A DNA stretch of 41,164 nt from a virus. Location: the IMG/VR virus record IMGVR_UViG_3300036830_000344, positions 1 through 41,164 of that record; one strand, 5' to 3'. Shown piece by piece: positions 7,509 through 41,164 of the stretch (position 1 is its first letter; each line of letters starts with the position of its first letter). Both the position numbers and the translations under genes were made by a program. Below the pieces are notes generated by a model. That model worked only from the letters and a program-made list of their open reading frames with translations, was not told where the DNA came from and ran no database searches.

Positions 7509-7649
7509 ATGAACCCCGACCCACACCGACCAGAGACGCTGACGCTGCATGAGTGGCTACATGGCACTGAGCCTGAGCCGACCACGCTGCCCAGTAGCGC
7601 GCCCGCGAACGCAGCGCCTACGAAAGGAAGCACCGATGACCACCGATGA
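7509..7649 (+). CDS. Early small hypothetical protein (46 aa)
   Basis: First gene of the rightward early operon. ATG at 7509 follows a strong GGAGGAGC ribosome binding site. The 46 residues (MNPDPHRPETLTLHEWLHGT at the start) are short, acidic and proline-rich, with a single helix-like LTLHEWLHG segment, so it may act as a peptide binding a host protein. No family recognised. The next gene begins inside its last codons (ATG 7636), an overlap of 14 bp. Confidence 0.6.
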   Translation: MNPDPHRPETLTLHEWLHGTEPEPTTLPSSAPANAAPTKGSTDDHR

Positions 7650-7872
7650 ACGAGACGCCGTCGGTGCCGACGAGAGTCAGGGCAAGTTCGTGGTCGAGCT
7701 GGAGCCGGGCAACGCGCTCCAGACACCTGACGACGTAGCGGCGGCTCTCCGCGATGTCGCGGACACTGTGCTCGCATTGCCCACGTGGTGGGAGGGCGAC
7801 GGGGCGATCCTTGACCGTAACGGCAACTCAGTGGGGCGCTGGACATTCCACGACCGAGAAGGAGAACGATGA
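7636..7872 (+). CDS. Early small hypothetical protein (78 aa)
   Basis: Starts MTTDERDAVGADESQGKFVV after AAAGGAAG. Residues 15-45 are acidic helix (DDVAAALRDVADTVLALP), then WWEGDGAILDRNGNSVGRWT, a small beta hairpin typical of many phage orphan proteins. The stop overlaps the next start (ATGA at 7869-7872). Position in the early operon suggests a host-takeover role; function not recognised. Confidence 0.65.
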   Translation: MTTDERDAVGADESQGKFVVELEPGNALQTPDDVAAALRDVADTVLALPTWWEGDGAILDRNGNSVGRWTFHDREGER

Positions 7873-8081
7873 TGAGCCGCCCCCTGGACAACGCCGTAGC
7901 CGACCTGGAGCTGCCGGACCTGTTGGCAGCCCGTGAGGAGCTTGCCGCCCAGCCGAGCTGGTACCGGGCCACCCTGAGCACCACGGACCCCGACGCACCT
8001 GTTCTATGGCTCGGTATGAGCATCGGAGAGGCGCTCGTCGAGATCGACGCCCGGATAGAGCACGTCAGGGAGGGGAGCTGA
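7869..8081 (+). CDS. Early small hypothetical protein (70 aa)
   Basis: A 70-residue acidic, helical protein (MMSRPLDNAVADLELPDLLA). Either of two adjacent ATG codons (7869, 7872) could be the start. It contains SWYRATLSTTDPDAPVLWLG, probably strand, then a C-terminal acidic helix. The stop TGA overlaps the ATG of the next tiny membrane protein by one base. Unknown function. Confidence 0.65.
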   Translation: MMSRPLDNAVADLELPDLLAAREELAAQPSWYRATLSTTDPDAPVLWLGMSIGEALVEIDARIEHVREGS

Positions 8082-8173
8082 TGCACGGCTGGCTGCTCTC
8101 GTTAATTGGTGAACTGGTCCTCATCGTGCTCATCCTCGGCGTCGGCTATCTCGCCGGTCGCTTGCTGCCCTAG
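8081..8173 (+). CDS. Tiny single-span membrane protein (30 aa)
   Basis: A 30-residue gene, translationally coupled by TGATG to the gene before it. Sequence begins MHGWLLSLIGELVLIVLILG, and residues 4-27 form one hydrophobic span with an Arg near the C-terminus. Such miniature early membrane proteins in phages often act on host envelope processes or superinfection, but no specific function can be claimed. Its TAG stop codon contributes the first base of the tRNA-like element that follows. Confidence 0.6.
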   Translation: MHGWLLSLIGELVLIVLILGVGYLAGRLLP

Positions 8174-8236
8174 CCGCGCTTGGAGCGCCGCCCCGGTTCG
8201 ATTCCGGGGCGCGGCCTTGTACCGAACGCAGTACAA
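8173..8236 (+). ncRNA. tRNA-like minihelix plus hairpin, copy 1
   Basis: A 7-bp acceptor-like stem GCCGCGC (8173-8179) pairs perfectly with GCGCGGC (8209-8215). Inside it a 5-bp T-stem CCCGG/CCGGG (8192-8196/8204-8208) closes the 7-nt loop TTCGATT, which fits the tRNA T-loop consensus. Only 12 nt replace the D and anticodon arms. The first paired base is the G of the preceding TAG stop. A second hairpin, TTGTAC/GTACAA (8217-8222/8231-8236), comes just before the AAAGGAG of the next gene. Copy 2 at 9115 keeps the same plan with compensatory changes. Confidence 0.6.
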
Positions 8237-8251
8237 CCCAAAGGAGTGACC

Positions 8252-8590
8252 ATGAACGCAGAATCCGAGATGCAGCACGGCGACGGCCTGGGCGCCGAGT
8301 CGACCGCGGCGAAGGACGGGATCGAGCACGAACTGACTCTCGCCACCGTGGCGAACATGCGGCGGTTCAAGGCCCTAAACCCCGGCCGGGAGATCCCCGG
8401 CGGCGGACGTATCGAGGGACGACGCTGCTTCGCCCTGTCGTTAGAGACGGGCGAGCAGTGCAGCGCCGACCCTGGCGACTACTTCGCTCGGCCCGACGAT
8501 CAGCCACTGGTCGATTCGGCCGGGGAGCCGATGGTCCTAGCCGTCTCCGCGACGGTCTACCGGGACGCAATAAGTGGGGAGGTGGTCTAG
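8252..8590 (+). CDS. Early hypothetical protein (112 aa)
   Basis: Starts MNAESEMQHGDGLGAESTAA at ATG 8252, 9 nt after AAAGGAG. An acidic N-terminus is followed by RRFKALNPGREIPGGGRIEG and a domain with two cysteines (RRCFALSLETGEQCSADPGD) ending in short beta-like segments. Possible metal or disulfide site, but no family is recognised. It is separated from the previous gene by the tRNA-like element, so its translation may depend on that structure. Confidence 0.65.
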   Translation: MNAESEMQHGDGLGAESTAAKDGIEHELTLATVANMRRFKALNPGREIPGGGRIEGRRCFALSLETGEQCSADPGDYFARPDDQPLVDSAGEPMVLAVSATVYRDAISGEVV

Positions 8591-8917
8591 ATGGGCGACG
8601 CAAAGAAGCAGCGAGAGGGCGAGAGCCTGCGCGACTACGACGAACGCCGGGCTAACGAAGATGAGCGGGATGCCCAGCTCCTACCCGCTGTTGAAGCAGC
8701 GCTGACTCAGTGCCAGCACATCGCCTACGACGAATCAGTAGCCCTAGGGCGAGCATTAGACGTTCCGGCGGGCAGCTTGGCTAAAACGGCGCTACGGGAC
8801 CTTGCCCACAAGGCGCTGGCTGCGTTGCAGCGGATCAACTCCATTGCCGAAAGCAGCGAGGCTGACAACAGCTTCGTCGCTGAGTTGGAACGCATCGCCA
8901 ACGAGGAGGAGATCTAG
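8591..8917 (+). CDS. Early hypothetical helical protein (108 aa)
   Basis: Begins directly after the preceding TAG (MGDAKKQREGESLRDYDERR). Charged N-terminal helix, then a helical bundle-like region (LLPAVEAALTQCQHIAYDES, LAHKALAALQRINSIAESSE) with an acidic C-terminus. No motif recognised. Sits in the early operon between two other small unknown genes. Confidence 0.65.
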   Translation: MGDAKKQREGESLRDYDERRANEDERDAQLLPAVEAALTQCQHIAYDESVALGRALDVPAGSLAKTALRDLAHKALAALQRINSIAESSEADNSFVAELERIANEEEI

Positions 8918-9115
8918 ATGACGCTCGCAGGAATCAAAACGGGGGACATCGTCCTATGCGACGTGCGCGGAGATCAGTTCCATGCGCGCGTGGCGGCAAG
9001 GCCGGATGAGCTACTCCCCATCGAATCGCTGACGAGGCGGCCAATTCCGTCGCTCTACGTGAAACCCCGTCAGGTAATCGCCCATTGGCGCAAGTCGAAG
9101 CAGTCGAAGGTCTAG
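8918..9115 (+). CDS. Early small hypothetical protein (65 aa)
   Basis: A 65-residue, small beta-barrel-like protein (MTLAGIKTGDIVLCDVRGDQ, then FHARVAARPDELLPIESLTR) with a basic tail (HWRKSKQSKV). The opening KTGDIVLCDVRG resembles SH3-like folds, and the basic tail could bind nucleic acid. It starts right after the stop of the 108-aa gene. Its TAG supplies the first base of the second tRNA-like element. Function unknown. Confidence 0.65.
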   Translation: MTLAGIKTGDIVLCDVRGDQFHARVAARPDELLPIESLTRRPIPSLYVKPRQVIAHWRKSKQSKV

Positions 9116-9177
9116 CGGCGCTGGTAGCGCTGGGCGGGGTTCAATTCCCCGCCGCCGCCTTGCCCAATACCGGGCAG
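9115..9177 (+). ncRNA. tRNA-like minihelix plus hairpin, copy 2
   Basis: Acceptor-like stem GCGGCGC (9115-9121) pairs with CCGCCGC (9152-9158) at 6 of 7 positions. T-stem CGGGG/CCCCG (9135-9139/9147-9151) closes loop TTCAATT, a canonical T-loop. The 13-nt insert TGGTAGCGCTGGG includes a D-loop-like GGTAGCGC. As in copy 1 the first base is the G of the upstream TAG, and a second hairpin TTGCCC/GGGCAG (9160-9165/9172-9177) precedes the GAAGGGAG of the next gene. The discriminator-to-ATG distance is 37 versus 36 nt in copy 1. Confidence 0.6.
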
Positions 9178-9195
9178 ACCGAAGGGAGCACCACC

Positions 9196-9603
9196 ATGAG
9201 CACCAACGCAGAGCGGGCGGCACACGCCGACCGCACCGTCACCAACTACTCGGCCGACTCAAGCCCCGAGGAGTGTCTCAGCGACCTGCTCGGCGACCTG
9301 CGGCACTTCTGCGATAAGTACGGCGTGGACTTCGGAGAGCGCGATAACGTCGGACACCGGAACTACCTGAGCGAGCTAGCCGAGGAAAAGCCCGCCGAGC
9401 CCGCCTACACCGTCGTGGGCATCTACTTCGACGGGGTCGACCTCCATGAACGCTACGCGACCACCGTCTACACCCGCGGAGGTTCCAAAGCGGCTGAAGC
9501 GCTGGCCCAGGAAGCATGCCGCATAGACAATGACCACGACACGAGCGACGACCTGATTGAGATCTCCGCCGTGATCGAGGGAGAGGTCCAGGTGGTCGCG
9601 TGA
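9196..9603 (+). CDS. Early hypothetical protein (135 aa)
   Basis: Starts MSTNAERAAHADRTVTNYSA after GAAGGGAG. The N-terminal 65 residues (ECLSDLLGDLRHFCDKYGVD) form a helical module that recurs, from memory, in many phage early proteins. The C-terminal half (YTVVGIYFDGVDLHERYATT) looks like a small alpha/beta unit ending in an acidic strand. The largest gene of the early operon. The stop overlaps the next start (GTGA at 9600-9603). Function unknown. Confidence 0.65.
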   Translation: MSTNAERAAHADRTVTNYSADSSPEECLSDLLGDLRHFCDKYGVDFGERDNVGHRNYLSELAEEKPAEPAYTVVGIYFDGVDLHERYATTVYTRGGSKAAEALAQEACRIDNDHDTSDDLIEISAVIEGEVQVVA

Positions 9604-9758
9604 ACGCAAGCACTGAGGAGGCGATGGGCATCTGGGCGGCCGTGGCTGCCCTGTGCCTTGTCTGCGTTGCCGTCGCTCTTGGCGCTGGTGAAGTAGTGAC
9701 GGTCCTGACCGTCATCGTCTGCGCGATCACTTACGGGATCTGGTGGGTACTCGCGTGA
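9600..9758 (+). CDS. Tiny two-span membrane protein (52 aa)
   Basis: A 52-residue gene starting with GTG at 9600 (GTGA overlap). After a short acidic N-terminus (MNASTEEAMG) two hydrophobic segments follow, residues 10-30 (IWAAVAALCLVCVAVALGAG) and 33-51 (VTVLTVIVCAITYGIWWVLA), separated by one Glu. A small integral membrane hairpin; possible roles include envelope modification or antiholin-like control, unproven. Its stop overlaps the next GTG start. Confidence 0.6.
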   Translation: MNASTEEAMGIWAAVAALCLVCVAVALGAGEVVTVLTVIVCAITYGIWWVLA

Positions 9759-9976
9759 AGAAGGCCGACGCTGTACGCCTGGAGATCGGCGCGACCGCTC
9801 AGGAAATCGCTGAACACGACGAACGTGGTGAGGCTCTGCGACGGCGGCTAGGTGCTGCCCTCGCAGAGGCCCGCGACCATCCCGAGATGACACTCGAAGA
9901 AGGCCGCAAGATCCCCGAGAAGGAGATCCCCCGGCAGACCGTCGTCCGGCTGATACGAGAGGCGTCAGCCGGTTGA
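9755..9976 (+). CDS. Early small hypothetical protein, possibly DNA-binding (73 aa)
   Basis: Last gene of the early operon. GTG at 9755 overlaps the preceding TGA (GTGA); an in-frame GTG at 9743 is an alternative. Sequence MKKADAVRLEIGATAQEIAE leads into RRRLGAALAEARDHPEMTLE and RQTVVRLIREAS, a helix pattern reminiscent of a small helix-turn-helix. Charged and soluble. Could regulate the early region, but this is only a pattern-based guess. Confidence 0.6.
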   Translation: MKKADAVRLEIGATAQEIAEHDERGEALRRRLGAALAEARDHPEMTLEEGRKIPEKEIPRQTVVRLIREASAG

Positions 9977-10207: not shown

Positions 10208-10217
10208 GAGACAGCTA
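10205..10217. repeat. 13-bp direct repeat, right copy
   Basis: GACGAGACAGCTA, identical to 9977-9989 on the far side of the 59-aa gene. Confidence 0.6.
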
Positions 10218-10224
10218 CGCAAGT

Positions 10225-10315
10225 GGTGGGCGGCAGCGAGAGTCGAACTCGCATCTCCACTAGGGCGACGGCACGGCGCCCTCTGGGTGAGCTTCGCTGG
10301 TTGCTCCATACCGCC
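10225..10315 (-). ncRNA. tRNA-like element with abnormal anticodon region
   Basis: Minus strand. Acceptor GGCGGTA (10315-10309) pairs with TGCCGCC (10235-10229), one G-T wobble. A D-arm GAGC/GCTC follows with a loop beginning AA and ending AA as in tRNAs. The T-arm GCGAG-TTCGACT-CTCGC is canonical, and the 3' tail reads CACCA. The 35 nt between D and T arms do not make a normal anticodon arm; the best hairpin is GGGCG/CGCCC with a 9-nt loop. So this is a degenerate tRNA, a tRNA mimic, or an attP copy of a host tRNA 3' end with chance extension. About 90 nt in all. Confidence 0.5.
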
Positions 10316-14567: not shown

Positions 14568-14980
14568 TCGGAATCGACCGCCGATCGCATCGCATCCTCG
14601 CCGAGCTGGTTGAGCAGCTTGCGGATGAAACGCACCTTGCCGGGCTTGTAGTGGCCGGCCGATTCAAGCTTCTCGAGTTCCTTGTCGATCGCGTAAAGCG
14701 GCGACATCACGACCCGCTCCTTTTTCTCTCGAGCGCGCCGGGTGATCTCTTCCTGGGCCTCCCTCGAGATCGCCTCGGGCTCGCCGGCCAGGGCCGAGCT
14801 CTGCGACGGCGTGTAGCCGCTCTCCTCGCCAGCCTCGGCGATCGCGGCCGGGTCGCCGACGTCGTACGGCACGCCTTCCTCGTCGAAGCTGCGACGGATC
14901 TCAGCGTAGTTGGTGCCGTGGGGACTGGCCCGCAAAAGCCGCGGCGGGTCATCCTCGATCTGCACTCGGCGTTTTGCCAT
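14564..14980 (-). CDS. Hypothetical protein in replication operon
   Basis: A 138-residue charged protein (MAKRRVQIEDDPPRLLRASP). Residues 55-135 are long charged helices (ISREAQEEITRRAREKKERV, IDKELEKLESAGHYKPGKVR). No catalytic motif. It overlaps the helicase stop (ATG at 14980) and the mini zinc gene (ATGA at 14567-14564), placing it directly after DnaB, so an accessory role in replication is plausible but unproven. Confidence 0.65.
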   Translation of the reverse strand: MAKRRVQIEDDPPRLLRASPHGTNYAEIRRSFDEEGVPYDVGDPAAIAEAGEESGYTPSQSSALAGEPEAISREAQEEITRRAREKKERVVMSPLYAIDKELEKLESAGHYKPGKVRFIRKLLNQLGEDAMRSAVDSE

Positions 14981-16347
14981 CAGCCGTCCTCCCTCTGTCG
15001 ATCGTGGCCCGGCGGCACGACGTCGCCGAGTGCGAGCTCCTCCTGTTCATGCACCGGCTCGGGCTCGAGCCAATAGAACTGAAGGGTGCGGCTGTTCTGG
15101 GCGACCGGGATCGACTTCTTGAAGCCGTTGCGGACCTTCCCGAAGTAGATCTTTCCGGTCGGCAAGACGTTCGCGTCCGCGTCCTGGTCGCGGTGCAAGA
15201 AGAGCACGGCGTTGGCCGCCTGGGCGAGGGTGCCGGAGCCCTTGAGATCGACGTTGAGCGGCTGTGGCAACACGCCCTTCGGATCTTTCACCCGCGACCG
15301 ATTCAGGTGCGCCACGAGGATCACGTGGCAGTTGGCGCGGGAGGCGATCTGCTTGAAGCGACGGGTGATCGCCGCGGCGGTCTCTGCCTTCTCGAAGCCG
15401 GGGATTTCCGTCACCGGGTCGACGGCGACGACGTCGTAGCCGCCGTAGATGATCCGCTCGCAGATCCGGTCAGCCGACCAGTCGTAGCACTCGAAGTAGT
15501 CGAAGGGAAGGCGGCCGTGCTCGTTGGCCGCCTTCAACAGGCGAGAGAGGTGTTTGGGCTCGAGCTGGTTGCGAAGGATGCGTTCGAGCGGCACCGCCGT
15601 CTGCGCCGTCAGCCACCTGGCGGCACGCTCCTCGCGGGCCATCTCCGTCGCGAAGATCGCGCATTTGAACCCCTGCGCGTCGAAGCCAGCGAGGGCCTGA
15701 TCGAGGGCAAAGCTCTTGCCCATGTTTTCCCACCCGGCGAAGACCGACATCTGCTTGCGCCGGTAGCCGCCCATCACACACTCGTTGAGCTCCGACCAGG
15801 GCAGCTCCATGACCTCGCCCTCGGTGTCGCGGTCGAAGGTGTCGAAGATCTCGTCAAGGATTTCCTGCCCCGAAGTCCGTTCGGCCTCGATCGTGAAGTC
15901 GGCCGTGGCGAGCTGGATGCCCTCGCGGATCAGGAGCGCCGACGTCTCCTCGTTGTGGCGATCGCGGACGCCCTCGAGAATCCGCTGCGCGCCCGCCAGC
16001 TTCGCCCGGTAGTTGGCCGCGGTGAGGACGACCTCGGCGTAATGCGGCGCGTTGCCGGCGGCCGGGACTTTCGCCGCCAACTCGGAGACGTAGTGCTTGA
16101 GATCCGGGAGCTCGTTGGCAACGAGGAGCTCGTCGACGGTGCCCGTCCGTTCGGCCACCTTCACGATCACATCGAAGATTTCGCCGTGCCGCTCGAGGTA
16201 GAAGTGCTTGGCGGTCAGGCCCGATTCAGCGCGCACCCTCTTGAGCGCGGAATTGGAGACCATCATCGCCCCGAGCACCGACTCCTCGGCCTCGATGTTC
16301 TGCGGCGGGGCGTCCGACGTCGCCGGCTCGAAGACAACGTGGCCCAC
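14980..16347 (-). CDS. dnaB: Replicative DNA helicase, DnaB family
   Basis: A 455-residue hexameric helicase that would unwind the phage fork. The N-terminal domain (QNIEAEESVLGAMMVSNSAL) is the typical DnaB-N opening. The RecA-like motor has a Walker A GWENMGKS at 205-212, a variant of GxxxxGKS, followed by ATEMAREE, YDVVAVDP as Walker B region and HVILVAHLNRSR. The C-terminal KIYFGKVRNG carries residues expected to sense nucleotide. Start overlaps the stop of the initiator-like gene. Length is normal for DnaB. Confidence 0.9.
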   Translation of the reverse strand: MGHVVFEPATSDAPPQNIEAEESVLGAMMVSNSALKRVRAESGLTAKHFYLERHGEIFDVIVKVAERTGTVDELLVANELPDLKHYVSELAAKVPAAGNAPHYAEVVLTAANYRAKLAGAQRILEGVRDRHNEETSALLIREGIQLATADFTIEAERTSGQEILDEIFDTFDRDTEGEVMELPWSELNECVMGGYRRKQMSVFAGWENMGKSFALDQALAGFDAQGFKCAIFATEMAREERAARWLTAQTAVPLERILRNQLEPKHLSRLLKAANEHGRLPFDYFECYDWSADRICERIIYGGYDVVAVDPVTEIPGFEKAETAAAITRRFKQIASRANCHVILVAHLNRSRVKDPKGVLPQPLNVDLKGSGTLAQAANAVLFLHRDQDADANVLPTGKIYFGKVRNGFKKSIPVAQNSRTLQFYWLEPEPVHEQEELALGDVVPPGHDRQREDG

Positions 16348-18287: not shown

Positions 18288-18487
18288 CAGGAGAGCTCCC
18301 CGAGGTAGTTGAAATCGCAATCCCCGGTGTCGATGATGTCGAGTTCGATCGCCCGCGCGATGTCGTCGACGTTCCAGTCGTTGAGGTCCGCGCTGTAGGG
18401 CGGCCGCTCCCCGTTCGCCGCGGCAAGGTGCTCGGCAAGAGCGTCGTCGTCGATCTCGAGCGTGACGGTGACGTTGTGCCGCGACAT
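18287..18487 (-). CDS. Small acidic hypothetical protein (66 aa)
   Basis: MSRHNVTVTLEIDDDALAEH, then ADLNDWNVDDIARAIELDII. A strand followed by acidic helices. Its ATG overlaps the integrase stop by one base (TGATG), so it is co-translated with integrase. A recombination directionality factor is sometimes found in this position, but those are usually basic winged helices, so this acidic protein does not fit well. Unknown. Confidence 0.6.
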   Translation of the reverse strand: MSRHNVTVTLEIDDDALAEHLAAANGERPPYSADLNDWNVDDIARAIELDIIDTGDCDFNYLGELS

Positions 18488-19383
18488 CAGCGCGCCACCC
18501 CCTCGAGCAAAGTCTCACCCAGACTGAGGCTCGGGTTCGAGTTGAGGCTTAGACCCCCGCGCTGGTAGCGCATCGTCGTCGCCGGATCTGAGTGGCCGAC
18601 GGCGAGCTGCACCACGTGGAGCTCGGCGCCGGCCTCGAGCGCGTTGGTGACGAAGCTGTGCCGCAGGCCGTGCGGGGAGAGCTCCGGGTTGACCCCTGCG
18701 TAGTCGGCCAGGTGGCGGACCCGGTCGAAGGCGGTCTGCCTCGAGATCCCCGCGATCGGAGTTGCCGGCTCGCGGTTGCGATCGAGCCTGACGATCAGCG
18801 GCCCCGCGGTGCGGCCGTCGAGGTAGGGGTCGAGCACGTCGACGAACACGGGCGCGAGAGGCGTCAGGCCCGGCTTGCTGCCCTTGCGCATGATCGCAAG
18901 GGTCCGATGGCCGTCGACGACGCCGAGATCCGGCACAGAGGCCCTGAGCGCCTCGGAGACGCGCAGACCGTTGATCCCGAGTAGGGCGAGCAGGATGAAG
19001 TCCCGCACGCTCTCCTCGAGCGCCACAGAGAGCAGCTTGGAGAGGTCGTCGGCGCCGAGCCAAGGCGTCGAGCTCTCCCCCGGCAGCGCCAGCCGGCCGA
19101 CGTGGGCGAAGGGCTGCTCGCCGCGGCGCATCCCCCGGTCCTCGAGGTAGGCGAAGAAGCTGCGGCAGGCCGACATCGAGCGGTCGACGCTGACCGGCGC
19201 CAACCCCCTCGCGAGCAGCGCATCGCGATAGCCGTTGACGTCGGTGCGCCCCGGCTCGAGCGGGTCGACGTCGTGCTCCCGGCACCACGCGAAGTAGTTG
19301 GTCAGGTCACGTTGATAGGCGGCGCGGGTGTTGGCGACCGGGTACTCGGTCCCCCATTCCGCGAGCAGCGCGGTCGGGCTCAT
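18487..19383 (-). CDS. int: Tyrosine recombinase / integrase
   Basis: A 298-residue site-specific recombinase that would integrate the phage into the host chromosome. The N-terminal SAM-like core-binding domain (AAYQRDLTNYFAWCREHDVD) precedes the catalytic domain with R141 (GLRVSEAL), K167 (RKGSK), H238-x-x-R241 (SPHGLRHSF), GH at 263-264 and nucleophile Y273 (MRYQR). All key residues are present. ATG at 19383 with AAGGAG upstream. It leads a leftward operon divergent from the repressor candidate. attP is not obvious next to the gene. Confidence 0.92.
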   Translation of the reverse strand: MSPTALLAEWGTEYPVANTRAAYQRDLTNYFAWCREHDVDPLEPGRTDVNGYRDALLARGLAPVSVDRSMSACRSFFAYLEDRGMRRGEQPFAHVGRLALPGESSTPWLGADDLSKLLSVALEESVRDFILLALLGINGLRVSEALRASVPDLGVVDGHRTLAIMRKGSKPGLTPLAPVFVDVLDPYLDGRTAGPLIVRLDRNREPATPIAGISRQTAFDRVRHLADYAGVNPELSPHGLRHSFVTNALEAGAELHVVQLAVGHSDPATTMRYQRGGLSLNSNPSLSLGETLLEGVAR

Positions 19384-19435
19384 ACTGGATCTCCTTCGGT
19401 CAGGCCCCGGCCCCTGTGACCGGGATCTCGACGGC

Positions 19436-19470
19436 AGGGTATCGCATGTGTACACACGTTGGGGTAAGGT
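19436..19470. promoter_or_regulatory. Divergent int/repressor promoters with central operator
   Basis: Rightward -10 TAAGGT (19465-19470) for the winged-helix gene and leftward -10 TACCCT (19441-19436) for integrase flank the perfect palindrome TGTGTACACA (19447-19456). The rightward spacing (8 nt from operator to -10) is identical to that of the promoter at 21841. A single bound regulator could control both directions, as in a lysogeny switch. Confidence 0.55.
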
Positions 19471-19502
19471 TCTCGATTCCAGCAAACCGAAGGGAGTCAA
19501 CG

Positions 19503-19844
19503 ATGCCAGCAACTATCGAGAAGGTCCGCGAGCTTTTGGGCACGCGGCTAGGAGAGCTCGACGAGGAGAAGGGCCGCGTCGAAAGGGCGAGGGAGGCCCT
19601 CGACCTGAGCAACGGCACGGCGCCAGCACCCGCCGGCCGGCCACCGAAGAAACGCCGCAAACGCCGCGGCGGCACCCGCGCCGATCAGGCCGTCGAGCTG
19701 ATCGTGAAGACGCCGGGGATCTCCGCGTCCGACATCGCCAAAGCGATGAAGATCAAACCGAACTACCTCTACCGCCTGCTCGGGGATCTCGAGACGGAGG
19801 GCAAGGTCAAAAAGGACGGTCGCCGCTACTACCCCGGCGGCTGA
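19503..19844 (+). CDS. Winged-helix DNA-binding protein, repressor candidate
   Basis: A 113-residue protein starting MPATIEKVRELLGTRLGELD at ATG 19503 after GAAGGGAG. Residues 1-40 form a coiled coil, 41-58 a Pro/Lys/Arg linker (GRPPKKRRKRRGGTR), and 60-113 a winged helix (QAVELIVKTPGISASDIAKA, YLYRLLGDLETEGKVKKDGR, ending RRYYPGG). Dimerising coil plus wHTH and its divergent position next to integrase make it the best candidate for the lysogeny regulator acting at the TGTGTnCAC sites. Sequence only suggests this; a host-like nucleoid-binding role is an alternative. Confidence 0.7.
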   Translation: MPATIEKVRELLGTRLGELDEEKGRVERAREALDLSNGTAPAPAGRPPKKRRKRRGGTRADQAVELIVKTPGISASDIAKAMKIKPNYLYRLLGDLETEGKVKKDGRRYYPGG

Positions 19845-39014: not shown

Positions 39015-41164
39015 TTACTGGCCGGGTTCGTTGGCAGTCGGAGGTTCCGTGCCGTTACCGCCGCCGGGCTGGGGAGATCCACCGGGGAGGGAGGGGGACA
39101 CTTTCGGACCTGGTTCCTTGCCGGCGTTCGCCATCCCCTGTTCTTCGGCGACCTGATTCTGTACTTCTTCCTGCCGCACCTGGGCCTGCGTTTCGAGGTC
39201 GATGATCTTCTGGTAGTAGAAGAGCGACGCGTCCTTCGTCTTTGGCGGTGAGGATTCCCAGTCGTCGGTCTTCATCCAGTTCTCGATCGCCGCTTTGATG
39301 ATCGGCAGGGAGTCAAAGGGACGCGGCAGCCAACCGGGGACCATCGGACGACCGTTGACTTCCTCGAGCACTTCCTCGCCGGGCAGCGCCGGCCGGAGCG
39401 GCTGGTTCATGAAAGTGCCGTTCTTCAGCGACTCGATTACCCGGTGGGCTCGGCCAACGTCCTCTTCATAGCCCTGGATCAACTTTTCGGGGGTGGCCGA
39501 GTTGAGCGCCTGGATCACGACCTCGGGCGGGAAGACGCCCGGGAAGGTCTGGACGAGCTGCATGATCCGCTGTTCGATCTGGGGCCGCGTCTGCTGCTGT
39601 GTGGCCGACTGCTTGACGACGACATCGGTCTGATCGCGGAGATCGGCGCCGGTGAAGTCACCGACGGGTTCCCAGCCAGTCGTACCGCGGAACTTCATCA
39701 GTCGATCGGCGCCGTACTTGCGCTGGGCGATCACGAGGCAGTCGGTCATCAAGCCCGAGCGGAAGCGGTCGAAGTCGTCGACAAACTTCTGCCAGGCAAC
39801 CCGGCTCAATTCGACAACTGAGTTAATCGCCGTTCCCGATTCGACCTGATTGGGGATGTCCTGGTCAAAGGTGATTTTGGAGAAGCGCGCCTCGGCCCGT
39901 TCTTCCATCTCGAAGAGCTCGGAGGGGAAGTCGATGTTTTCCCGCCATTCGGGCTTTTCACCATTCGCCAAGGTGCGGTCATACTCGACCACGAGGCCGG
40001 GCTCATCGGTCGGGTCGGTGAGTAGCACGCCCTCGGCAGCGAGGATCTGTGCAACGAGGCCGATCTGGCTGTACTCGCTCTGCTTGTTGATCGCCTGGTC
40101 GTAGGAACGCACTACGTCGATCACCTTTTGCACGAGGCCCTTGGCACGATCGTTAGAACCGTCAATGTCATAAATCAGCCGACGCAGGCAAGGACGATCA
40201 ACGACCTGACCTTTGCCGTCGACAAGCGGGTAGTCCTCGTCGGCGAAGATCTTGCGACCGCCCGCGAAGGTCTGCCAGCGACCCTGCGGGTATTTCGGGC
40301 ACGGCCGCTCGAAGTATTCAGTGGTAACACAGAGCTTGGAGCCCTTCTTCTCGCGGGCCGTGATCCGGCTCGTCGACGACGTCGAGGCATCGGGCTGAAG
40401 TTTGCCCTCCGGCACTTTGAGGAAGCCGGATTCGTCTTCGAGCTCCTCGATCGAGCGAACGTGCTCAACGGCGTACCAGCGCGATTTCTCGAAGTCAACC
40501 CCTGGCTCCCAGAGAACCTCGAGCCCGGAGTAGATCGTGACCCCAATCTCACCTCGACCGCGGTAAACGGGCTTTTCAGGATCGGGCATCCCTTCGTAAG
40601 GTTTTTCGCCCGTCTCGGGATCTACGTAGTCAGCTTCGGGGTGGATCGAGACATCGGAAAAGGGGCCGACGCTGCCGTCCCACGCAGCTCGACCGAAGGC
40701 TTCCTCGCTGACCATCGCCCACCACAGGGCCTTCTCCTCGGCCGTCGAGAAGCCCCATGTGTCGTAACCCGCTCGAGCGAGTCGCATCGCGATCCTCGAA
40801 GCGGCGTAGTCCTCGGGATCTCCGGTGACCGCCGTCGATTCCCATTCCGGTTCGCGCTGTGTGGCGGAGGAGATTTTCCTCTTCAGCATCGGCGAGATGA
40901 TGTCGTTGCTGCGACGCACCCGGTGGTCAGGCTTCGCGCCACCCAGGGCTACCGTTGACGTCGAGACGTCGGTCAGTTTGGTGCCATCGTCATTGAGCTC
41001 GGCGAAGTGGTTACCGTTGGCGAACTTGATCCCAAGCTGTCGGCGGGCGACGACTTCGTTGAGCCCATCACGGCCACGCTTGAGCCGCTGCTCGACGTCG
41101 GTCGGGATCGGTTCCCGGCCTTTGACCTCCGGCTTCGCGGCCGGCTTTTTCTCGGCGACGGCGG
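39015..41164 (-). CDS. Portal protein (main part; N-terminus continues at 137-1)
   Basis: Forms the dodecameric DNA gateway at one capsid vertex. This part holds nearly all of the about 719-residue protein. A long helical/beta body runs through WWAMVSEEAFGRAAWDGSVG, then QKVIDVVRSYDQAINKQSEY and SGTAINSVVELSRVAWQKFV, typical of podovirus portals with their stem and clip helices. The C-terminus is Gln/Pro/Gly-rich. The frame is open from 40919 through the right end into the left end, which shows the contig ends are one gene in a circle. The GTG at 40919 is internal, not the start. Scaffold and capsid follow. Confidence 0.85.
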   Translation of the reverse strand, partial: AVAEKKPAAKPEVKGREPIPTDVEQRLKRGRDGLNEVVARRQLGIKFANGNHFAELNDDGTKLTDVSTSTVALGGAKPDHRVRRSNDIISPMLKRKISSATQREPEWESTAVTGDPEDYAASRIAMRLARAGYDTWGFSTAEEKALWWAMVSEEAFGRAAWDGSVGPFSDVSIHPEADYVDPETGEKPYEGMPDPEKPVYRGRGEIGVTIYSGLEVLWEPGVDFEKSRWYAVEHVRSIEELEDESGFLKVPEGKLQPDASTSSTSRITAREKKGSKLCVTTEYFERPCPKYPQGRWQTFAGGRKIFADEDYPLVDGKGQVVDRPCLRRLIYDIDGSNDRAKGLVQKVIDVVRSYDQAINKQSEYSQIGLVAQILAAEGVLLTDPTDEPGLVVEYDRTLANGEKPEWRENIDFPSELFEMEERAEARFSKITFDQDIPNQVESGTAINSVVELSRVAWQKFVDDFDRFRSGLMTDCLVIAQRKYGADRLMKFRGTTGWEPVGDFTGADLRDQTDVVVKQSATQQQTRPQIEQRIMQLVQTFPGVFPPEVVIQALNSATPEKLIQGYEEDVGRAHRVIESLKNGTFMNQPLRPALPGEEVLEEVNGRPMVPGWLPRPFDSLPIIKAAIENWMKTDDWESSPPKTKDASLFYYQKIIDLETQAQVRQEEVQNQVAEEQGMANAGKEPGPKVSPSLPGGSPQPGGGNGTEPPTANEPGQ
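41038..41164. repeat. 127-bp direct terminal repeat, right copy
   Basis: Exact repeat of 1-127. See the left copy. Confidence 0.95.

Follow-up and report, generated by a model that had tools for sequence, protein, structure and literature searches.

Introduction

Mimics of the elbow and acceptor half of tRNA are known from several settings. mascRNA and menRNA (MALAT1, RF01684) are substrates of RNase P and RNase Z. A tRNA-mimic module is also found in bacteria and phages, in the YrlA/Y RNAs bound by Ro60, which are longer RNAs lying next to ro genes. RNase P of the E. coli type pairs with RCC(A). RNase P measures along the helix from the elbow (PMC4919913), and model RNAs composed of acceptor stem, T-stem and T-loop are cut correctly (PMC11143913). 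The distance from the T-loop to the 5' end is the conserved 12 bp of tRNAs, and RNase P also processes two phage RNAs, the C4 antisense RNA and M3 RNA (PMC11143913). In plant mitochondria, cuts by RNase P and RNase Z at t-elements define the ends of mRNAs (PMC11658184).

Here we analyse the viral contig IMGVR_UViG_3300036830_000344, whose entire length of 41,164 nt is called the window. Sequence and pairing place two of its intergenic sites, A and B, in a widespread class of minimal tRNA mimics, here termed "tRNA tops", that lie between phage genes of the same orientation. The class is apparently undescribed so far: neither Rfam 15 nor the open-access literature searched holds a prior description or family, while subscription journals may hold one. 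In Gordonia phages CaiB and Vardy, repeated intergenic motifs have been reported as promoter or regulatory repeats, not as a tRNA-top structure.

Like t-elements, the phage elements are tRNA-like structures, nearly all of them with no encoded CCA (PMC11658184). Their position at gene ends fits that of t-elements, and they are predicted to be processed into mRNA ends. T-elements are organellar, occur in small numbers per genome and show homology to whole tRNA genes; the phage elements, by contrast, have no anticodon arm, measure about 43-50 nt and fill most gaps of viral operons. With the minimal RNase P model substrates of the AT1 type they share a 12-bp helix and a T-loop (PMC11143913); those substrates are artificial, whereas the phage elements occur in nature, include a D-loop-like linker and in most cases have no CCA. 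C4 and M3 have another architecture and are not intercistronic multi-copy RNAs. mascRNA and menRNA resemble the phage elements in having an acceptor stem and T-arm with reduced D and anticodon parts, and differ in being single-copy at the 3' end of an animal lncRNA. Compared with YrlA/Y RNAs, the phage elements are short and intercistronic. At the gathering threshold no Rfam family, C4 (RF01695) included, matches the window or seven element-rich loci.

Two tRNA-like elements between small genes of the window

The window has a G+C content of 65% and a perfect 127-bp terminal direct repeat (positions 1-127 are identical to 41038-41164), which makes it probable that the genome is complete and either circular or terminally redundant. 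Small genes at 7549-9976, most of them without a known family, are oriented opposite to the terminase, helicase and integrase genes. This block contains two gaps of about 80 nt, each holding one tRNA-like structure (Table 1).

Table 1. Coordinates of sites A and B, their flanking signals and the landmark genes of the window (a slash marks the 5' end of an element)
Feature	Position	Strand	Detail or basis
Terminase	1362-2990	minus	
TAG stop of 30-aa ORF 8081-8173	8171-8173	+	G is nucleotide 1 of element A
Site A, whole element	8173-8215	+	12 stacked bp of acceptor and T-stem; TA/GCCGCGC-ttggagcgccgc-CCCGG-ttcgatt-CCGGG-GCGCGGC-CTTG; acceptor 7/7, T-stem 5/5
A acceptor 5' strand GCCGCGC	8173-8179	+	7/7 pairs with 8209-8215
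A D-loop-like linker TTGGAGCGCCGC, class CTTGGAGC	8180-8191	+	motif conserved within the CTTGGAGC class
A T-stem CCCGG/CCGGG and T-loop TTCGATT	8192-8208	+	sequence
A acceptor 3' strand GCGCGGC	8209-8215	+	followed by C73 (8216), then TTG
Small hairpin TTGTAC/GTACAA directly 3' of A	8217-8236	+	computed fold
RBS AAAGGAG and start codon (8252) of ORF 8252-8590	8240-8254	+	sequence
TAG stop of ORF 8918-9115	9113-9115	+	G is nucleotide 1 of element B
Site B, whole element	9115-9158	+	12 stacked bp of acceptor and T-stem; TA/GCGGCG-ctggtagcgctgg-GCGGGG-ttcaatt-CCCCGC-CGCCGC-CTTG
B acceptor 5' strand GCGGCG	9115-9120	+	6/6 pairs with 9153-9158
B D-loop-like linker CTGGTAGCGCTGG	9121-9133	+	sequence scan
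B T-stem GCGGGG/CCCCGC (6 bp) and T-loop TTCAATT	9134-9152	+	sequence scan
B acceptor 3' strand CGCCGC	9153-9158	+	followed by C73 (9159), then TTG
Small hairpin TTGCCC/GGGCAG directly 3' of B	9160-9177	+	computed fold
RBS GAAGGGAG and start codon (9196) of ORF 9196-9603	9181-9198	+	sequence
DnaB-type helicase	14980-16347	minus	
Integrase	18487-19512	minus	

The initial annotation had described the two sites as built on one plan, and direct reading of the sequence bears this out. Each combines 12 bp of acceptor and T-stem with a canonical T-loop, has a linker of 12-13 nt where a tRNA has its D and anticodon arms, takes the G of the upstream TAG as its first stem base, and is followed by a small hairpin. 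The proposed division of the helix into 7 + 5 pairs is correct for A (7/7 and 5/5) and wrong for B, where acceptor pair 7 would be C-C and 12/12 is reached only as 6 + 6. Differences between A and B at acceptor pair 3 and at T-stem pairs 2-3 are compensatory, as had been noticed. The last acceptor base precedes the next start codon by 37 nt in A and by 38 nt in B, and the two sites are mutually related, since an element of contig L003 aligns with both. The 30-aa ORF that terminates exactly at element A resembles a single membrane span (MHGWLLSLIGELVLIVLILGVGYLAGRLLP).

Chance occurrence, tRNA genes and competing folds

To define the structure, we scanned for a T-loop of the form GTTCRANNC, a 12-bp stack of acceptor and T-stem, and a linker of 6-26 nt. 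A and B are the only perfect sites in the window. Both have the 12-bp distance from T-loop to 5' end (12/12), and their T-loops (TTCGATT and TTCAATT) agree with the consensus G53-TTCRANN-C61, which is built into the scan definition and is not independent evidence for the wider set. In 100 dinucleotide shuffles of the window, the mean number of 12/12 structures was 0.06; no shuffle contained two, and none contained one with a linker of 10-14 nt. Chance hairpins were rejected on the shuffles and on the unselected background.

ARAGORN called no tRNA in the window, and on this result real or decayed tRNAs were discarded as an explanation. Canonical tRNA genes are excluded by the short linker standing where an anticodon arm should be and by a 3' CTTG in place of NCCA. 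Many early contig matches proved to be real tRNAs and were thrown out, and the pooled counts given below leave out elements near ARAGORN tRNAs. The RCC that would pair with RNase P RNA is absent at the 3' side of A and B (C-TTG), and R73-C74 is present in many Gordonia-class elements. CCA at positions 74-76 is absent from A and B and encoded in 15 of 262 pooled elements, making the EF-Tu-type binding that had been suggested for the two sites less likely. The best sub-threshold Rfam match, that of B to mascRNA-menRNA RF01684, scores 24 bits against a gathering threshold of 42.5 (E 0.034), and membership of that family was rejected. An attachment site (attP, or the 3' end of a tRNA) is also disfavoured: A and B are two differing copies 9-10 kb from the integrase, not a single adjoining one.

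Folded in isolation, without tertiary contacts, the sites give a competing D-like hairpin at -25.8 kcal/mol (A) and -26.5 kcal/mol (B), versus -21 kcal/mol for the tRNA-like fold. This extended minimum-free-energy hairpin was rejected, as its outer pairs fail to form in 17 and 20 members of the 31 aligned below and show no covariation.

Occurrence in other viruses

A first pattern search of viral contigs (CTAG, GGTTCRANTCC and CTTG, pairing not required) returned 16 stretches. Seven of them (L003, L005, L009, L010, L012, L013 and L017, with L009 and L012 sharing one sequence) have the full structure before a start site, and the remaining ones were noise or tRNA. Contig L002, reached through a protein of the window, contributed two more elements. 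Where stretches of L013, L017 and L010 were compared with the window, DNA similarity is confined to the element and the sequence immediately flanking it; positions 6615-6688 of L013 match at 90% over 77 nt, spanning element, hairpin and ribosome site, ahead of an unrelated gene. Long stretches of the window gave no DNA match to named phages, and short element queries alone succeeded: BLAST of site A led to Gordonia phages Cafasso and VanLee and, via the T-arm, to Streptomyces phage Joe and halovirus HRTV-27. The initial annotation had called for homologues in related phages, and the structure turns out to be conserved, with compensatory changes, far beyond them. The elements of VanLee, Joe and haloviruses are still recovered by a covariance model from which these members had been left out.

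Three further pattern scans gave at least 353 loci. With neighbours of ARAGORN tRNAs removed, at least 118 loci carry two or more elements, up to 14 (in about 12 kb), nearly always on one strand. The pool made non-redundant at 85% similarity comprises at least 262 elements from at least 163 loci.

In VanLee, 17 of the 18 gaps of 45-400 nt between minus-strand genes contain an element. Sixteen of these 17 elements (in 16/18 gaps) are scan matches and one was supplied by the covariance model; the scan, over 44.6 kb, gave 16 matches on the minus strand, each between adjacent genes, and none on the plus strand. The only gap without an element, 362 nt long, is close to where the gene block begins and therefore probably serves as a leader or promoter region. 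VanLee also encodes a tRNA-Arg and, at 65751-67367 (L102), a Ro-like RNA-binding protein. It is the most element-rich of the named phages, and a link between this protein and the elements is worth testing. Of 12 gaps of this kind in Joe, 8 hold an element, and every one lies on the gene strand. The haloarchaeal virus HRTV-27 carries at least five elements within a minus-strand block (L461, 45000-56000), mostly in gaps; several start at the last base of the upstream stop, as in the window, and a downstream hairpin is present too. The haloviral elements have the same plan as those of bacterial phages. The named-phage records examined have no RNA annotation at element positions. phiC31, intended as a positive control, has no elements, only a tRNA-Thr and one weak match score, and now serves as a negative one.

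Contigs with 38-48% G+C contain elements of the same plan. Two of these contigs, L440 and L405 (42-48% G+C), have 7 and 14 elements, respectively, and their leaders, TAAACCAAT among them, lack a Shine-Dalgarno sequence; blastn of both returned no named relative. The leaders of some low-G+C contigs suggest phages of Bacteroidota.

Covariation, linker and helix length

Selection on the structure was assessed in 31 diverse members of the CTTGGAGC class. Paired cells amount to 99.5% versus 57.3% after shuffling, and the covariation score is 1.066 versus 0.201. Double-sided changes occur in 10 of the 12 pairs, the other two being invariant, and shifting the partner by one column lowers pairing to 51-55%. 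These members had been filtered for pairing, which makes the alignment alone partly circular, and the unbiased check is a swap test in which elements were chosen by T-loop and linker only and the 5' strand was set against its own or a foreign acceptor 3' strand. The own partner paired 6/6 in 33 of 51 cases (4.3 expected) and at least 5/6 in 68 of 69 (15.7 expected).

The linkers fall into the classes CTTGGAGCRNG, ATGGTCGCAG, CTGGCAGACA/AGGCACACA and TGGTGCGTG. Their common GG, found in 246 of 262 elements versus 184 (maximum 202) after shuffling, resembles G18-G19 of the tRNA D-loop. When at least 9 pairs were required, the total helix length was 11 bp in 298 matches, 12 in 138, 13 in 69 and 14 in 6, and the same scan on one shuffle of the same 3.5 Mb gave 12 matches. 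Pairing at the 13th position is no more frequent than chance predicts (44 of 134, with 37-46 expected). While the boundary between acceptor and T-stem drifts, their sum remains close to 12 bp. In the Joe class, most elements reach 11 bp rather than 12, with A-A at the end.

This constancy of about 12 bp, together with the canonical T-loop and the conserved D-loop-like GG, is what supports reading the elements as RNase P substrates. Structurally that reading is well supported, and the cleavage itself is predicted from it.

Downstream architecture and proposed intercistronic punctuation

The 34 nt that follow an element are enriched in hairpins (mean folding z -1.38 versus -0.14 further downstream), and the first base of the hairpin lies 2-4 nt past nucleotide 73 in 90 of 156 cases. 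A Shine-Dalgarno-like site with a start codon is found downstream of 162 of the 262 elements, versus 43 in shuffled sequence and 20 on the reverse strand, the start lying at a median of about 42 nt. A near-terminal 5' stem-loop is a known protection against decay that depends on the 5' end. If RNase Z cut after nucleotide 73, the new mRNA would start with just such a stem-loop.

We consider it moderately probable, and the most economical explanation, that the elements act as intercistronic tRNA punctuation, cut by the host RNase P and probably also by RNase Z. They would resemble mitochondrial transcripts and plant t-elements in this (PMC11658184), though reduced to the least that tRNA-end enzymes recognise. 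Within the polycistronic transcript, an element would fold as the elbow and acceptor half of a tRNA. The host RNase P would measure 12 bp from the elbow and cut 5' of nucleotide 1, and RNase Z or an equivalent host enzyme would probably cut after nucleotide 73. The downstream mRNA would then begin a few nucleotides before a protective 5' hairpin with the start site behind it, and the operon would be split into separately stable and translatable units: tRNA punctuation without tRNAs. The most speculative step concerns elements whose nucleotide 1 is the last stop base, where a ribosome finishing the upstream gene may keep the element unfolded, so that cutting would be coupled to the loss of upstream translation. 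The elements may instead serve as a translational switch, as the initial annotation also suggested.

A cut at the stop codon, as first proposed, agrees with A, B and 51 of the 262 elements, in which nucleotide 1 is also the final base of a stop codon; most 5' ends in VanLee and Joe lie 3-35 nt past the stop. Overlap with the stop codon is a common variant and not the rule. A cut within the stop codon would leave non-stop mRNAs unless it came after translation or only the 3' cut were made. Further points speak against RNase P punctuation: A and B have CTTG instead of RCC(A), energies alone favour their competing fold, most Joe-class elements have 11 bp with a terminal A-A, and phiC31 has no elements.

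Alternative roles

The elements could instead stay uncut and work as a binding site for a host factor that recognises tRNA, for the ribosome or for a phage protein, acting for example as a translational insulator, a reinitiation aid or an RNA-stability block. Ro proteins bind Y RNAs that mimic tRNAs, and the Ro-like protein of VanLee belongs to this family; together with the fixed spacing to the next start and the adjoining upstream stop, it favours such a role. We nevertheless hold binding to be an unlikely explanation, which accounts poorly for a helix kept at about 12 bp while the acceptor/T split and the sequence drift, and no shared phage protein was found.

Alternatively, the excised minihelices could themselves be the product, as trans-acting decoys or sponges for tRNA-acting enzymes or defence systems. 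Excision would be expected to follow a similar chemistry, and the many copies per genome, up to 14 in some 12 kb, would suit a decoy. This is nonetheless improbable: the anticodon arm, the target of known anticodon nucleases, is missing, and the spacing of nearly one element per gap, with hairpin and start site downstream, points to a role in cis.

Still less probable are transcription terminators or attenuators of the early intergenic regions. GC-rich stems between actinophage genes invite this thought, but an intrinsic terminator is disfavoured for A and B, as CTTG and no U-tract follows the stems of either, the canonical T-loop and linker GG would be superfluous, and the plan is unchanged in AT-richer relatives. 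Sites acting at the DNA level (recombination boundaries, tRNA-end attachment sites, or decayed tRNA genes spread as repeats) are the most doubtful and already disfavoured, for while the element is the sole DNA similarity of the window to the otherwise unrelated L013 stretch and attachment sites often contain tRNA 3' ends, the arms differ within one genome yet pair inside each element, and the copies of a locus, many per genome, face the direction of the genes.

Returning to punctuation by RNase P, a wider proposal can be made tentatively, with chances we put a little below even: that tailed viruses of bacteria and haloarchaea share a form of mRNA processing in which minimal tRNA mimics punctuate most early intercistronic junctions. 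If so, host tRNA-end enzymes would turn polycistronic viral transcripts into hairpin-capped single-gene mRNAs, the prokaryotic-virus counterpart of mitochondrial tRNA punctuation, without the tRNAs. The proposal points to recruitment of RNase P, and probably of RNase Z, by bacterial and archaeal viruses for genome-wide mRNA processing, and it would give a function-bearing identity to intergenic DNA, now unannotated, of many actinophages and other phages. The elements bear on the gene-by-gene stability of polycistronic phage transcripts and on natural minimal RNase P substrates, and might be used as compact processing signals in synthetic operons. The cultured phages VanLee, Cafasso, Joe and HRTV-27 make the hypothesis directly testable.

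A further tRNA-like region of the window

The third match of our scan in the window, at 10280 on the minus strand, pairs at 11/12. It is absent from the covariance-model matches and resembles a degenerate tRNA, and was rejected as a member of the family. On the minus strand, 10212-10310 contains a T-arm (GCGAG-TTCGACT-CTCGC) and a possible 7-bp acceptor (GGCGGTA/TGCCGCC), with CCACCA nearby. ARAGORN made no call in this region, and the Rfam tRNA score of 18 bits is below threshold. Part of the region is similar to L012 2346-2478. A divergent phage tRNA and an attachment site are both possible identities for it.
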